Positions 2,693-31,520 of a stretch of 40,749 nt of DNA are shown in pieces. The first letter of the stretch is position 1, and every line of letters starts with the position of its first letter. The stretch comes from Acetobacteraceae bacterium (GTDB lineage Bacteria > Pseudomonadota > Alphaproteobacteria > Acetobacterales > Acetobacteraceae). A program made the translations under genes and the position numbers. The notes below the pieces were generated by a model. It was not told where the DNA came from and did not search any database. It saw nothing but the letters and a program-made list of their open reading frames with translations. The stretch lies in assembly GCA_025452005.1 (NCBI GenBank), contig JANWJK010000122.1:1-40749 (forward strand), written 5' to 3'.

Positions 2693-3790
2693 GTGGATTT
2701 CGGCATCATCGATTGTCACGCCCACATCTTTCCGCCGCTCGCCGGCGCGTGCGGATTCGCCGATGTCGCGGAGCATCTGCTGCACCAGCAGCGCGCGATG
2801 CACGAACACGGCAATCAGCCATATCGCCGCCAACGCGACGATGCCATCGTCACCGAACGCGCGTTATGGTCGGCGACCGACTCTTCGGTGGCGGGACGGC
2901 GCGAGACCGGCTTCCGCGTCGGTCGCTGCGGTCGCTTCGAATGGGAGGCCGATGGCGAGGCGCAGTACGTGCAGTTCCTCCCGCCGTACATGGCAGATAT
3001 GTCGGCGCCGGCCGAGGTGATAGCGCGGCAGATGGACTACGCGGGCATCGCAATGGCGGTGCTGCAGAACGATCATATCTATGGCGATCTGGCCGAGGAC
3101 TTCGCCGCCGCGAGCGCGCGGTATCCCGGCCGGTTCATCGGTCTGGCACAGCTACAGGAGGCATGGGCGTTCCGCGACGACCAGCTTGCGCGACTGGCCG
3201 ACCAGGTCGAGCGGCTCGGCATGGCGGGGCTTTATTTCACCTACAGCGGGCTGTTTCGCAACGGCTATGCCATGCGGCCGAGCGATCCGGCGTACGATTC
3301 GCTATGGCGAGAGGTCGCGCGGCTGGATCTGCCGGTGTTCTGGGTGCATCGCGACAGGTCGCCGATCGGCAGCTACGAGGAGGAACTGGCCGATCTCGCG
3401 CGCATCCTTGAGCGGCATCCCACGGTCAGGAGCGTGCTGGTGCACGGCCTCCCGACCTCACGCTACGCCGATACCGACGACCGGTTGATGTTGCCGCCGG
3501 TGGTCGAACGATTGCTGACCGAGATGCCGGTGTCGGCGGAGCTGCTGTATCCGATCTCCTGGGGTGGCCGCTTCGAGTATCCGTATGACAGGGCGATCGG
3601 GCATTTCCGCCAGCTCGTGGATCGGTTCGGTACCGCGCGCTTCGTCTGGGGCTCCGACATGCCGAACGTGGAGCGCTACTGCACCTATCGGCAAACTTTC
3701 ACCTATGTGTGGAACCACGCCGATTTCCTGACCGATGCGGACAGGCGCGCGATCTTCCGCGACAATACGCTGGCGCTGTTCCGCCGCTGA
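2693..3790 (+). CDS. Amidohydrolase-2 family metal-dependent hydrolase
   Basis: A 365-residue TIM-barrel hydrolase of the Amidohydrolase_2 (ACMSD/resorcylate decarboxylase-like) group. The metal-binding HxH lies at residues 9-11 (IDCHAHIF). A mid-protein His is in WVHRD and another in LVHGL. The terminal metal/acid Asp is in FVWGSDMPN. These are the usual zinc-site positions, so hydrolysis or decarboxylation of a small cyclic or aromatic substrate is likely. The GTG at 2693 is preferred because AAGGAG (2680-2685) sits seven bases upstream; an in-frame TTG at 2687 is too close to it. It follows the DppC gene by 11 bases, so it is probably co-transcribed and may process what the importer brings in. 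The substrate is unknown. Confidence 0.85.
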   Translation: MDFGIIDCHAHIFPPLAGACGFADVAEHLLHQQRAMHEHGNQPYRRQRDDAIVTERALWSATDSSVAGRRETGFRVGRCGRFEWEADGEAQYVQFLPPYMADMSAPAEVIARQMDYAGIAMAVLQNDHIYGDLAEDFAAASARYPGRFIGLAQLQEAWAFRDDQLARLADQVERLGMAGLYFTYSGLFRNGYAMRPSDPAYDSLWREVARLDLPVFWVHRDRSPIGSYEEELADLARILERHPTVRSVLVHGLPTSRYADTDDRLMLPPVVERLLTEMPVSAELLYPISWGGRFEYPYDRAIGHFRQLVDRFGTARFVWGSDMPNVERYCTYRQTFTYVWNHADFLTDADRRAIFRDNTLALFRR

Positions 3791-3799
3791 CTGCGTCAG
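3787..3799. terminator. Short palindrome between convergent genes
   Basis: CTGAC-TGC-GTCAG is a perfect 5-bp stem with a 3-base loop that covers the stop codons of the amidohydrolase gene (plus) and the TPR gene (minus). It could be a weak bidirectional terminator. The stem is short and no T-run follows, so chance is possible. Confidence 0.25.
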
Positions 3800-5463
3800 A
3801 ATGCCGATGCCGTCAGCGTCACGTCGGCATCCTTCCAGGCCTTGTCGAACCGCTGTCGCACCGCGACCGCATCGGCGTCCTTGTGCTGCGCGCTCAGCGC
3901 CTGCGCGAGGCCGTAGAGCGCCCAGCCATTCTCCGGATGCCGGCGCAGGTCCTCGCGGTACACGGCTTCCGCATCCTGCGCCTTGCCGTCACGCAGCAAT
4001 GCCGCGCCGAGCAGGTGGCGCACAGGAAAGAACCAGTCGGAGGGTTCGTCGTATGCGAGGCCATCCTCTTTCGCTGCCGCCTCGGTGAGCAACGCGATGG
4101 CCGCGCCGTTCTGCCCGCGTGCCTGCGCTATTCGCGCCTTGGCGACCAGCACTGCCACTGCGAGCACGTCGGGGGCGTTGTTCAGCCCTGCGCTGTCATC
4201 GGCCTTCGCCGCCGCCGCGAGCTTTTCCAACTCGACCAGTTCGGCCTGGGCATCATCAGCGCGGCCCTTCGCCGCCAATGCGCTCGCCCGCGCATAGCGA
4301 TGTCCCGCGGCCAACCCGGGCAGCCTGGCGTCAGGCGCGGTCTCGGCGAGCAGCTCGTCCCACATGCCGAAGCGCACCATGGCCGTGTACAGTTCCGCAA
4401 CGTACCAGTCGGCGCCCGGCATTGCCGCAAGCATCTCATCCGATATGACGCCACGCGACTTGCGAGCTGCGTCCAGCGTGTCTGCCTTACGGCCCTGCAT
4501 TGCGGTGGAGAACGCCAGGAACTGATAGTTGTGCGCCGTATACATCACGTAATAGTCGGGTGGCTTGGTCTTCGAGAAATAGCCGAGGTCAGCATCGGCA
4601 CCCTTGCGGTTCGCCGCGGCTGCGTCCGCATACCGGCCGACGCGCTGCATGATGTGCGCCGGCATGTGCTCGAGATGACCGGCCGCGGGCATCATGCCAG
4701 GCAGTCGCTCCGCTGCGGCGACCGCCCTCTCGGGATGCGGCGAGGCCTCGATCGCGTGGATGTAGTAGTGGTTGGCGCCGGGGTGCTGCGGGTCCTTGGC
4801 GAGAACGCCTTCCAGCAGCGCAACGATCGCCTCGGTGCCGGCGGTCGGCGTACCGTCCAATGCCCAGAGCTTCCAGGCATTGATGTTCATCAGCGCCTCG
4901 GCCGTCAGCGTCTGCACGTCGCTGTCATCTGGGAAATTGCGAGCAGCAGACTGCATCGCCTGCGCATAGGCGGCCAGAACGGGGCCTTCGTTCAACGGAT
5001 CGAGCGGCCTGGCGTCGGGATAGCGTGCCGCCAGCGCGCCGATCAGCGCCTGTTCCACCGGCGTGGCGTGCGACGCGTTGGCCTTTGCCTGCTGCAACGC
5101 CTCCCAGGCGACCTTGGCGCGGGGCTCCGCCATCATCGGTAGGTTGTAGTTGGGACCCACGGTCAGAGCGACACCCCAGAAGCACATCGCGCAGCCGGGA
5201 TCGAGTTGCGCGGCTTTGGCGAACGAGCGGGAAGACTCGTCATGGTTGAACGCCCAGAGCAAGCGCATGCCTTGATCGAAGTAGTTCTGCGCTTCCTTGG
5301 ACGACGTCGTGACGGTGCGATGGAAGCCGCCGAGCCCGTCGAACAACTGCGCGCCGTCCGCCCACTCGGCCATTGTGCCGGGCGGCATTTGCCCATAGGC
5401 GGGGAATGCCATGCAGCTCAGCACCGCAAGCGCGCTGCCGCCAAACAGTTGTGTCCAGTTCAT
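3796..5463 (-). CDS. Exported tetratricopeptide-repeat protein
   Basis: A 555-residue protein beginning MNWTQLFGGSALAVLSC with a signal peptide whose likely cleavage lies after AYGQ (about residue 25). An in-frame start 14 codons upstream exists, but the ATG at 5463 has a strong AGGGAGGGG ribosome site. The mature part is helical with TPR-like units such as AQNYFDQGMRLLWAFNHDESSRSFAKAAQLDP and, near the C-terminus, AEAVYREDLRRHPENGWALYGLAQAL. The HAIEASPHPERA and HLEHMPAHI stretches are conserved in a group of exported TPR proteins of unknown role. It diverges from hyuA across a 77-bp gap and converges on the amidohydrolase gene. A scaffold or envelope role is inference. Confidence 0.8.
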   Translation of the reverse strand: MNWTQLFGGSALAVLSCMAFPAYGQMPPGTMAEWADGAQLFDGLGGFHRTVTTSSKEAQNYFDQGMRLLWAFNHDESSRSFAKAAQLDPGCAMCFWGVALTVGPNYNLPMMAEPRAKVAWEALQQAKANASHATPVEQALIGALAARYPDARPLDPLNEGPVLAAYAQAMQSAARNFPDDSDVQTLTAEALMNINAWKLWALDGTPTAGTEAIVALLEGVLAKDPQHPGANHYYIHAIEASPHPERAVAAAERLPGMMPAAGHLEHMPAHIMQRVGRYADAAAANRKGADADLGYFSKTKPPDYYVMYTAHNYQFLAFSTAMQGRKADTLDAARKSRGVISDEMLAAMPGADWYVAELYTAMVRFGMWDELLAETAPDARLPGLAAGHRYARASALAAKGRADDAQAELVELEKLAAAAKADDSAGLNNAPDVLAVAVLVAKARIAQARGQNGAAIALLTEAAAKEDGLAYDEPSDWFFPVRHLLGAALLRDGKAQDAEAVYREDLRRHPENGWALYGLAQALSAQHKDADAVAVRQRFDKAWKDADVTLTASAF

Positions 5464-27256: not shown

Positions 27257-27291
27257 CGGTGCCACCGTCTTGCCGGGAAATGGAGGTTGCG

Positions 27292-28092
27292 ATGGACGCC
27301 TTGCCGGAACGGGGATACTCGCTGGGTCGTGCGGAACGGCAGCGCATCCGCTCGGGCGGGTTCACCGGCCCGACATCGGGCCTTGCACCGGGCAACGTCC
27401 AGGCGAACCTGGTGATCCTGCCGAAGGCGCTGGCCAACGATTTCCTGCGGTTCGCCCAGGCGAACCCGAAGCCGTGTCCCGTGCTGGCCGTGTCCGAGCC
27501 CGGCGATCCGAGCTTCCCGAGCCTGGCACGTGAACTCGACATCCGTACCGACCTGCCGCGCTACCGTGTCTGGCGGCATGGCGAACTGGTCGAGGAACCG
27601 ACCGACGTCAACCATGTCTGGCGCGACGATCTGGTGAGCTTCGCCATCGGCTGCTCGTTCTCGTTCGAGGAGGCGCTGATCGAGGACGGCATCGAGGTCC
27701 GCCACATCGCCTGCGGCCGCAACGTGCCGATGTACCGCACCTCGATCCCGTGTACGCCGGCCGGCGTTTTCCATGGGCCGCTGGTGGTGTCGATGCGGCC
27801 GTTGAAGCCGGCGGACGCGATCCGCGCGGTGCAGATCACCTCGCGGTTCCCCTCGGTGCACGGTGCGCCGGTGCATCTCGGCATGCCGGAACAGATCGGC
27901 ATCAAGGACATCGCGCGGCCGGACTATGGCGACGCGGTGCCGGTCGGGGCGGATGAACTACCGGTGTTCTGGGCCTGCGGCGTGACGCCGCAGGCGGCGA
28001 TTGCGGCGGTGAAGCCGGAGTTCTGCATCACCCACGCGCCAGGTGCCATGCTGATCACCGACCTGCGCAACACGAAGCTGGCGGCGCTGTAG
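27292..28092 (+). CDS. DUF1445 'putative hydro-lyase' (D-glutamate cyclase N-terminal-like)
   Basis: A 266-residue member of the DUF1445/YcsI family, usually annotated 'putative hydro-lyase'. Hallmarks are [27 protein letters not shown] near the N-terminus, FCQ-like [28 protein letters not shown] and [15 protein letters not shown], plus late [11 protein letters not shown] and [13 protein letters not shown]. The ATG at 27292 has GGAGG five bases upstream; another in-frame ATG lies at 27280. In mammals this domain is fused to DUF4392 in D-glutamate cyclase (DGLUCY). Here the DUF4392 gene follows after 25 bp, so the two products probably act together on D-glutamate/5-oxo-D-proline (inference). 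Confidence 0.85.
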
Positions 28093-28101
28093 GTTTGCAA
28101 C

Positions 28102-28129
28102 CCACGGATGAACACGGATGGACACGGAT
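28102..28129. repeat. Phased CACGGAT repeat, single arm
   Basis: Three copies of CACGGAT occur at 10-bp steps (CACGGATGAA, CACGGATGGA, CACGGATCGC) between the DUF1445 stop and the DUF4392 gene. The motif has the same spacing as the arms of the inverted-repeat elements at 32.7 and 38.7 kb, but no inverted partner is visible here. The last copy supplies the ATG (28118) read as the start of the next gene. Confidence 0.65.
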
Positions 28130-29023
28130 CGCGCTGCGGCGGTTGGACGCATTGAAGCGCTGATCCACGAGGAGGTGGGGCGCAACATATCGGGGCTGTT
28201 TACTGCCGCCAAAGGCGGGCTCTGGCAGGCCGCAAGCGCATTGGCAGCCGCCGTACGCCCCTCGGTCGGCATCGTCACGGGATTCTATGTGCCACTTGGG
28301 ACGCCGCCGGCGGCGGAAACCGACGGGCCTGTCGGCGCCGCCATGCTTGCGGGCGCGTTGACCCAGGTTGGCGTCCCCTGCCGCGTGGTGACGGACGAGC
28401 CGTGTCGCGCCACCTGTGCCGCGGCGTTACGTGGCATGGATGTGCCGTTGGATGTCGTGCCGTTGGGGGGCGCTGTCGATGACGCGGTCGCGCTATGGCG
28501 GCGCAGCGGGGTCACCCATGCGCTGTCCATCGAGCGCTGCGGGATCAGTGCCGATGGCGCGCCTCGCAACATGCGCGGCGAGGACATCAGCGCCTTCACC
28601 ACGCCGCTCGACGGGCTGTTCCTGGCCGGGCCATGGCAGCGCATCGCCATCGGCGACGGCGGCAACGAGATCGGCATGGGGTCGCTGCCCGCATCGCTGA
28701 TCGGCGCGCACGTCGCGCATGGCGAGGCAATCGCCTGCGCCACGCCGGCCGACCACCTGATCGTGGCCGGTGTATCCAATTGGGGCGCCTATGCGCTGGT
28801 CGGGGCGCTCGCGGTGATCCGTGACGACTGGCGCGATTCGCTGATGGAATGGCTGGACGCGACTCGCGACGGCGCGATCCTTGAGGCGATGGTGAATGAC
28901 GGCCCCGCGGTGGACGGCGTGACGCGGCAGCGCGGTCTGACGGTGGACGGCATGCCGGCCGCGGTGCACCACGCCAAGCTGCAAGCGATCCGTACGATTG
29001 TGGAGGCGTATGCCGCCCGGTGA
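28118..29023 (+). CDS. DUF4392 protein (D-glutamate cyclase C-terminal-like)
   Basis: A protein of up to 301 residues related to the C-terminal DUF4392 half of D-glutamate cyclase, which interconverts D-glutamate and 5-oxo-D-proline. Seen in order: RIEALIHEEVGRNISGL (11-27), VGIVTGFYVPLGTPPAAETDGPVGAA (nucleotide- or substrate-loop-like), SIERCG...NMRGEDIS, and IAIGDGGNEIGMGSLP, the most conserved block of the family. The first four residues (MDTD) are encoded by the phased repeat, so the native start may be slightly downstream. The stop overlaps the murL-murD2 start region, suggesting coupling. Confidence 0.85.
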   Translation: MDTDRAAAVGRIEALIHEEVGRNISGLFTAAKGGLWQAASALAAAVRPSVGIVTGFYVPLGTPPAAETDGPVGAAMLAGALTQVGVPCRVVTDEPCRATCAAALRGMDVPLDVVPLGGAVDDAVALWRRSGVTHALSIERCGISADGAPRNMRGEDISAFTTPLDGLFLAGPWQRIAIGDGGNEIGMGSLPASLIGAHVAHGEAIACATPADHLIVAGVSNWGAYALVGALAVIRDDWRDSLMEWLDATRDGAILEAMVNDGPAVDGVTRQRGLTVDGMPAAVHHAKLQAIRTIVEAYAAR

Positions 29024-31520
29024 CTTCATCTGCGAGCGCTATCGCTATGACCCGGAAACCGGTGCGCTTGCGCTGCACTACAGCTTCGATGACGGCCCAC
29101 GCTTCGAAGAGCGCATCGTGTTCCCGGTCCGGGCACTGTCGCGGCGTGACAGCGAGGCACTCGACAGGGTGTTCCGGCTGCTGCTGCTGGCGTGCGGGGT
29201 CAGCTACTACAAGGCGTTCGCGCCTGGACGCGTGCGCTGCACGGCGTTTCCGCTGGATCACGCGACCGCCGCATTCTTCACCGACTTCTACGTGAAGGGT
29301 CTCGGCGAGTTCGCGTGGCGCAACGGCATCGATCTCGCGTCCCTGCTGCGCATCGTCGCCGAAGACGTCGAACCGCCGGCCGCGGTGCCGCTCGAACTGC
29401 CGCGGCTCACCTGCGTGCCGGTCGGCGGCGGCAAGGACTCCATCGTGACGATCGAGTGCCTGAAGCAGGCGGGCGAACCGCTGGTGCTGTTCTCGCTGGG
29501 CAACGCGGCGCCGATCGACGCGACGATCGCGCAGGCCGTGCTGCCGGCAATCCACGTGACGCGCAAGCTGGATCCGGCACTGTTCGCGCTGAACGAGGCG
29601 GGCGCGCTGAATGGGCACGTGCCGATCACCGGCATCCTCAGCATGATCGTGCTCGCCTGCGCGATCATCCTTGGCTTCGATGCGATCGCCATGTCGAACG
29701 AGCATTCCGCCAGCGCGCCCAACGTCGACGGCGTGAACCACCAGTACAGCAAGTCGTTCGAGTTCGAGCAGGCGTTCAGCCGGTTGCTGGAGCGGCATGT
29801 GGTGACCGGCGTGCGGTATTTCTCCTTGCTGCGGCCGCTGTCGGAGGTTGCCATAGCGCGCCGCTTCGCGCGCCATGCGGCGTATTTCCCGGTGTTCCGC
29901 AGTTGCAACACCGCATTCCGCCAGTCGGCCGAGCGCCGCGGCACCAACTGGTGCTGCGACTGCCCGAAATGTCGCTTCGTGTTCCTGGCGCTGGCACCGT
30001 TCGTGGACAGGCAGCGCCTGGTCGCGACGTTCGGCCGCGATATGCTGGACGAGGCGGCGCAGATCGACGGATTTGCCGAGCTGTGCGGACTGCGATCGCA
30101 CAAGCCGTTCGAGTGCGTGGGCGAGATCGAGGAGAGCGCCACCGTGATGGCGCATCTCGCCGGCATGCCGGCCTGGCGCGACGATGTGGTGGTGCGTGCG
30201 CTGTCGCCACGGCTGCACGGCGACCTTGCCGCGTTGTTCGCGCCGCGGGGGCCGCATCTGTTCCCGAGCGATACCTGGCGATGCTCGATGCGTGTGGATG
30301 AGCTGCGCGGCCGGCGCGTGGCGATCTGGGGATTCGCGCGTGAGGGCCGGGCGGCACTGCGCTTCCTGCGTGAGCGCGATCCGGGCCTGGCGGTCACCGT
30401 GCTGGATGATGCGGATGCACCCGGCGTCGATGTGCCGCTGATCAGCGGACGCGCCAGGATCGCAGCGGCCATCGACGGTTTCGACGTGGTGGTGAAGTCG
30501 CCGGGCATCAGCCTCTACGATCCGCTGGTGGTACAGGCGCAGGGGATCGGCGTGCGGTTCACCTCGCTGCTCAATCTGTGGTTCGCCGACGCCCCAACAT
30601 GCCGGACGATCTGCGTCACGGGTACCAAGGGCAAGAGCACGACCACGGCGCTGATCGCACATCTCCTGCGCGGTGTCCGCTGGACCGCGATGGCAGGAGG
30701 CAACATCGGCGTGCCGGTCACGGAACTGCCGCGTGACGGACTGGACGCCGCGGTGATCGAGGTGTCGAGCTACCAGGCGGCGGATTTCTCCGGGCTGTGC
30801 GACATTGCCGTGCTGACCTCGCTGCACCAGGAGCATCTCGACTGGCATGGCAGCGTGGAGGCATATCGGCGCGATAAGCTCAATCTGCTGCGGCATGCGC
30901 GGCTCGCCATCGCCCATGCCGACGCACGAGCCGGCATCGATGCGCACGACGACGTGGTGTACTTCGATCCGTGTTCGGCGTCCGCTGTGGCCAATCGCTA
31001 TCTTGCGCGCCCGCACAACCTGTCCAACCTGGGCGCGGCGCTCGCGGTGACCACATCGCTTGGCGTTGATCCGGCCGAGGCGCTGCTTGCGGCCGAGACG
31101 TTCCAGCCACTGCCGCATCGCCAGCAGGAGATCGGCGAGGTGGATGGTGTGCAGTACGTCGATGACAGCATCTCGACCACGCCGGAGGCGACGATCGCGG
31201 CACTCGACGTATATCGCGATCGCGCTGTGACGGTGATCATCGGCGGCCACGATCGCGGCATCGACTACCTCGGGCTGGTTGCGCGCCTGAAGTGCGAACC
31301 GCGGCCCGGCGTCGTTCTCCTCGATGCCAGCGGCAGACGGATCCGCGACCTGCTCGGCGCCGGGATACTGGCGGACACGATGGGCGACGCGGTGACGCAG
31401 GCGCGGGAGATGACGCCGCGTGGTGGCGTCATTCTGTTGTCGCCGGCAGCGCCGAGTTACGGCCGCTACCGCAGCTTCATCGAGCGCGGCGAAGATTTCG
31501 CCCGGTGCGCCGGGCTGTAG
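29010..31520 (+). CDS. MurL-MurD2 fusion: UDP-MurNAc-L-Ala-L-Glu epimerase + L-glutamate ligase
   Basis: One uninterrupted frame of 836 residues. Residues 1 to about 425 are MurL-like: a PP-loop-type PVGGGKDSIVT (138-147), AMSNEHSASAPN, and a Cys cluster NWCCDCPKCRFVF (about 313-325). Residues about 427-836 are MurD2: a Rossmann start RRVAIWGFAREGRAAL, the Mur-ligase P-loop VTGTKGKSTTT (about 536-546), EVSSYQ, HLDWHGSVEAYRRDK, DDSISTTPEAT and a final LSPAAPSYGRYRSFIERG. MurD2 adds L-Glu to UDP-MurNAc-L-Ala and MurL then inverts it to D-Glu, bypassing glutamate racemase (shown in Xanthomonas). An internal ATG at 30288 could also give free MurD2, but it has no clear ribosome site. It overlaps the DUF4392 gene. 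Confidence 0.9.
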   Translation: MPPGDFICERYRYDPETGALALHYSFDDGPRFEERIVFPVRALSRRDSEALDRVFRLLLLACGVSYYKAFAPGRVRCTAFPLDHATAAFFTDFYVKGLGEFAWRNGIDLASLLRIVAEDVEPPAAVPLELPRLTCVPVGGGKDSIVTIECLKQAGEPLVLFSLGNAAPIDATIAQAVLPAIHVTRKLDPALFALNEAGALNGHVPITGILSMIVLACAIILGFDAIAMSNEHSASAPNVDGVNHQYSKSFEFEQAFSRLLERHVVTGVRYFSLLRPLSEVAIARRFARHAAYFPVFRSCNTAFRQSAERRGTNWCCDCPKCRFVFLALAPFVDRQRLVATFGRDMLDEAAQIDGFAELCGLRSHKPFECVGEIEESATVMAHLAGMPAWRDDVVVRALSPRLHGDLAALFAPRGPHLFPSDTWRCSMRVDELRGRRVAIWGFAREGRAALRFLRERDPGLAVTVLDDADAPGVDVPLISGRARIAAAIDGFDVVVKSPGISLYDPLVVQAQGIGVRFTSLLNLWFADAPTCRTICVTGTKGKSTTTALIAHLLRGVRWTAMAGGNIGVPVTELPRDGLDAAVIEVSSYQAADFSGLCDIAVLTSLHQEHLDWHGSVEAYRRDKLNLLRHARLAIAHADARAGIDAHDDVVYFDPCSASAVANRYLARPHNLSNLGAALAVTTSLGVDPAEALLAAETFQPLPHRQQEIGEVDGVQYVDDSISTTPEATIAALDVYRDRAVTVIIGGHDRGIDYLGLVARLKCEPRPGVVLLDASGRRIRDLLGAGILADTMGDAVTQAREMTPRGGVILLSPAAPSYGRYRSFIERGEDFARCAGL

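Follow-up and report, generated by a model that had tools for sequence, protein, structure and literature searches.

In Xanthomonas oryzae, an alternative route to the D-glutamate of peptidoglycan is provided by MurL (XOO_1319) and MurD2 (XOO_1320) (PMC8788868, PMC5808125). The stereospecificity of MurD2 has been assigned to a residue pair, Glu197 and Arg358 in X. oryzae, which stands at the positions of Asp182 and Lys348 in Escherichia coli MurD and chooses L-Glu (PMC8788868).

The window analyzed here, a 40,749-nucleotide stretch of DNA from a bacterium of the Acetobacteraceae, carries homologs of both genes on its plus strand in one stop-free frame of 836 codons (29010-31517), or 840 codons if counted from an upstream TTG at 28998. 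The first-pass annotation had described MurL and MurD2 here without a stop at their junction, and the open frame was confirmed and the enzyme identities were supported. The MurL profile NF041275 matched residues 10-423 with 443 bits, covering almost the complete length of the model; this is below the curated cut-off of 700, which belongs to a Xanthomonadales-specific model on which three homologs from outside the Xanthomonadales also scored just 421-490 bits (the congener described below, L011 and L013). The MurD profile TIGR01087 matched residues 436-833 with 274.8 bits (cut-off 212), and the ligase contains the Glu/Arg pair of MurD2. The GGGKDS motif at residues 139-144 of MurL was invariant in an alignment of seven sequences. 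It resembles the PP-loop of ATP pyrophosphatases, which would fit the formation of AMP.

The genus was represented by two genomes, that of the window (G000, in which the window holds the only copy of the junction) and that of a congener (G001). The congener has the same arrangement of genes, with neighbors encoding NtrX and the D-Glu_cyclase and GLUCM-like proteins, and its MurL and MurD2 are 78% and 73% identical to those of the window, but there the two enzymes are encoded by two separate ORFs. The MurL frame of the window follows the congener from 29010 through the residues GPH at 30257 (this portion alone matched NF041275 at residues 10-404, again with 443 bits). Similarity then passes to the +1 frame, in which VPERYLAMLDACG followed by a TGA stop is encoded at 30260-30301, the end of an ORF that spans 29192-30301; the corresponding end of the congener MurL is VPQRYLAMLDACS-stop. 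When the end of the +1 frame, SVPERYLAMLDACG-stop, was compared with the end of the congener protein, APHQVPQRYLAMLDACS-stop, 11 of 13 residues from the V onward were identical, and the codons of the old frame ahead of the overlap differed from those of the congener mostly by silent third-position changes (gtt/gtg, ccc/ccg, tac/tat), with one Glu/Gln replacement. This identity and these mostly silent differences mean that selection was still acting on the old murL frame very recently.

The nucleotide alignment with the congener contained a one-base gap at the junction interval (30258-30268). The base lost is ambiguous within approximately 30257-30268, so the position is an interval rather than a single base, and a gain of two bases would give an equal frame. 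The old murL stop lies at 30299-30301 and overlaps by 14 nt the ATG at 30288, from which murD2 extends to 31520 (278.8 bits to TIGR01087 for this gene alone). An overlap of the same length was found in the congener, whose MurD2 begins MHVAELRGQRIAIWG in a frame different from that of its murL, once the shift in the window is allowed for, and also in L011, L013, G056 and other loci. The internal ATG noted in the first reading is present; it is homologous to the position at which murD2 begins in all relatives and is the native start of the gene. These comparisons indicate that the join between MurL and MurD2 was almost certainly made by a frameshift. In this lineage the locus would be an ordinary murL-murD2 pair with a 14-nt overlap between different frames; a net loss of one base (or gain of two) at approximately 30257-30268, 13 codons ahead of the murL stop, would divert the MurL frame into that of murD2 and create an artificial ORF of 836 codons.

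To determine how often the two genes are fused, the contigs were scanned, 60 close genomes were searched, and profile searches were made of 385 genomes from the class and 398 from the phylum. The resulting 38 rows represented 35 distinct loci besides the window (L045/L055 and L087/L091 were duplicates, and L056 was the window itself), which came from the same genus, class and phylum as well as from Marinicella. In none of the 35 were murL and murD2 fused. All were separate, out-of-frame and mostly overlapping ORFs; in-frame continuity was seen in no relative, and a frameshift accounts for the junction in the window. The murD2 frame was +1 relative to murL in 31 loci, with overlaps of 14-56 nt, and the other frame in the remaining four; returning one base to the window would restore the +1 relation. 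Most relatives in the class and phylum have kept a C-terminal H-x-[VI]-P motif in MurL, and likewise the out-of-frame overlap. One genome, G551, had an 840-aa open frame that resembled a second fusion, but the extra length lay upstream of murL, and its murD2 overlapped murL by 14 nt in a frame of its own. In the congener the murD2 frame stays open over the 155 nt that precede the murL stop, and in 20 of the 35 loci over at least 60 nt, so the absence of stops around a junction of this kind is unremarkable. Those 20 loci are one indel from joining and none has joined, which suggests that a lasting MurL-MurD2 fusion is disfavored.

The best explanation is that this is an ordinary murL-murD2 pair with a one-base slip rather than an evolved fusion. 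The slip itself is, with a probability of roughly 0.7, an error of assembly, sequencing or consensus calling in a metagenome-assembled genome that is fragmented (G000 has 368 contigs and is 74% complete), a grading that reflects judgement rather than computation. By the same kind of judgement, the main alternative, unlikely although worth entertaining, is that a real and recent frameshift in the sampled strain made a true MurL-MurD2 fusion that is functional, tolerated or near-neutral and is unseen in the relatives examined. Such a mutation would have cost MurL its final 13 residues and added a short linker, LFPSDTWRCS, leading into a full-length MurD2. The frame has no stop and neither enzyme is otherwise truncated, as a real mutation would have it, and a shift at the 3' end of murL is placed where it would harm least, which counts against an artefact. 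In addition, no further frameshift was found when approximately 38 other orthologous genes of G000 (39 ORFs compared, about 40 kb) were compared with the congener by a tblastn flag that is insensitive to shifts at extreme gene ends, where coverage was judged by eye; a possible second shift upstream of a D-cysteine desulfhydrase-like gene was left uncounted, as it preceded the probable start of that gene. This assembly is therefore not grossly error-prone, which counts for a real mutation without deciding between mutation and artefact. Against a real mutation stand the lack of decay in the old frame relative to the congener, the retention in most relatives of both the overlap between frames and the H-x-[VI]-P motif, and the absence of fusion from the other loci, including the 20 that are a single indel away.

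An evolved fusion is very improbable. In its favor, the two domains catalyze consecutive steps (PMC8788868), and Mur enzymes are fused to one another elsewhere, as in the MurB/MurC protein of Verrucomicrobium (PMC4803751). However, it is absent from every relative, the congener included, and with the old murL tail and stop intact in the neighboring frame selection has had no time to mold a linker. This reading was accordingly rejected, and the proposal that a single polypeptide channels the intermediate from ligase to epimerase is not supported, as a net shift of -1 (or +2) interrupts the reading frame of MurL. Least credible of all is that the present sequence yields two products, the fusion plus MurD2 from the ATG at 30288, for although that codon is the native start, no clear Shine-Dalgarno sequence precedes it (by eye), and in relatives the overlap suggests that translation of murD2 is coupled to the termination of murL, a link that the fused frame would presumably abolish.

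Directly upstream of murL are two genes of D-glutamate cyclase families (27280-29023), in an order identical to that of the congener. The first (27280-28092, plus strand) encodes a putative hydro-lyase or D-glutamate cyclase family protein (PF07286, 228.6 bits; NF003969, 428 bits), and the second (28118-29023, plus strand) a D-glutamate cyclase-like protein of the GLUCM-like_C/DUF4392 type (PF14336, 228 bits over 13-292), with a stop that overlaps the murL ATG by 14 nt. A GLUCM-like ORF, identified by eye, is also located ahead of murL in G466 (locus L072), from another family of the phylum. In L011, from an alphaproteobacterial metagenome-assembled genome, a D-Glu metabolism gene again adjoins murL: the preceding gene (3012-3983) encodes the N-acetyl-D-Glu racemase DgcA (NF042940, 457 bits; cut-off 400), and the gene after murD2 belongs to the FtsW/RodA family. 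For the two cyclase-family genes, one guess is that cells whose D-Glu is made only on the UDP-linked precursor can break down the free form without harm. A MurL homolog approximately 33% identical was also found in a Saccharibacteria metagenome-assembled genome (L014, 3989-5341), with no match to murD2 within the 5.5-kb stretch around it.

The first-pass annotation had also suggested a check for murI and a standard murD in the genome. G000 is itself incomplete; in the congener, which is 99% complete, neither a glutamate racemase (TIGR00067) nor a D-amino-acid transaminase (TIGR01121) scored above cut-off, and the single MurD-family match above cut-off was the murD2 beside murL. The dcw cluster of the congener lacks a canonical murD, with mraY followed directly by ftsW. 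A canonical murD candidate in G000 (C59, 89 bits) proved to be murC, which lies in a fragment of the dcw cluster together with murG, murB, ddl, ftsQ, ftsA and ftsZ, as named from ORF order and sequences, and a glutamate racemase match (C61, 35 bits) proved to be a weaker Asp/Glu racemase-family protein. Such a gene occurs in both G000 and G001 (L007, L047) and may provide a minor additional source of D-Glu. On sequence grounds, the enzyme identities and a predicted racemase-independent route to D-Glu are supported. No other family member that was sampled gave a match to MurL, so the MurL/MurD2 route is sporadic within the family.

An evolved channeling enzyme is an attractive but mistaken reading, and what remains once it is removed is a further case of this route, in a genus whose other sampled family members gave no MurL match. 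When a single metagenome assembly shows an apparent fusion of two operon genes that overlap, the old stop should be sought in the neighboring frame and the fusions counted in relatives.

The pair in the window resembles that of X. oryzae in having homologous enzymes, adjacent genes, the Glu and Arg residues of stereospecificity and no detected MurI. It differs in that the window reads through MurL into MurD2 by a frameshift, and in that its MurL falls short of the NF041275 cut-off. The ligase is placed with MurD2 by its position beside murL, as in the 35 other loci, and by its residue pair. In comparison with the canonical MurD of E. coli, the match to the Mur ligase family extends over the whole ligase part (30288-31517), but Asp182 and Lys348 are replaced by Glu182 and Arg323 of the window ligase, with which they align, as in MurD2.
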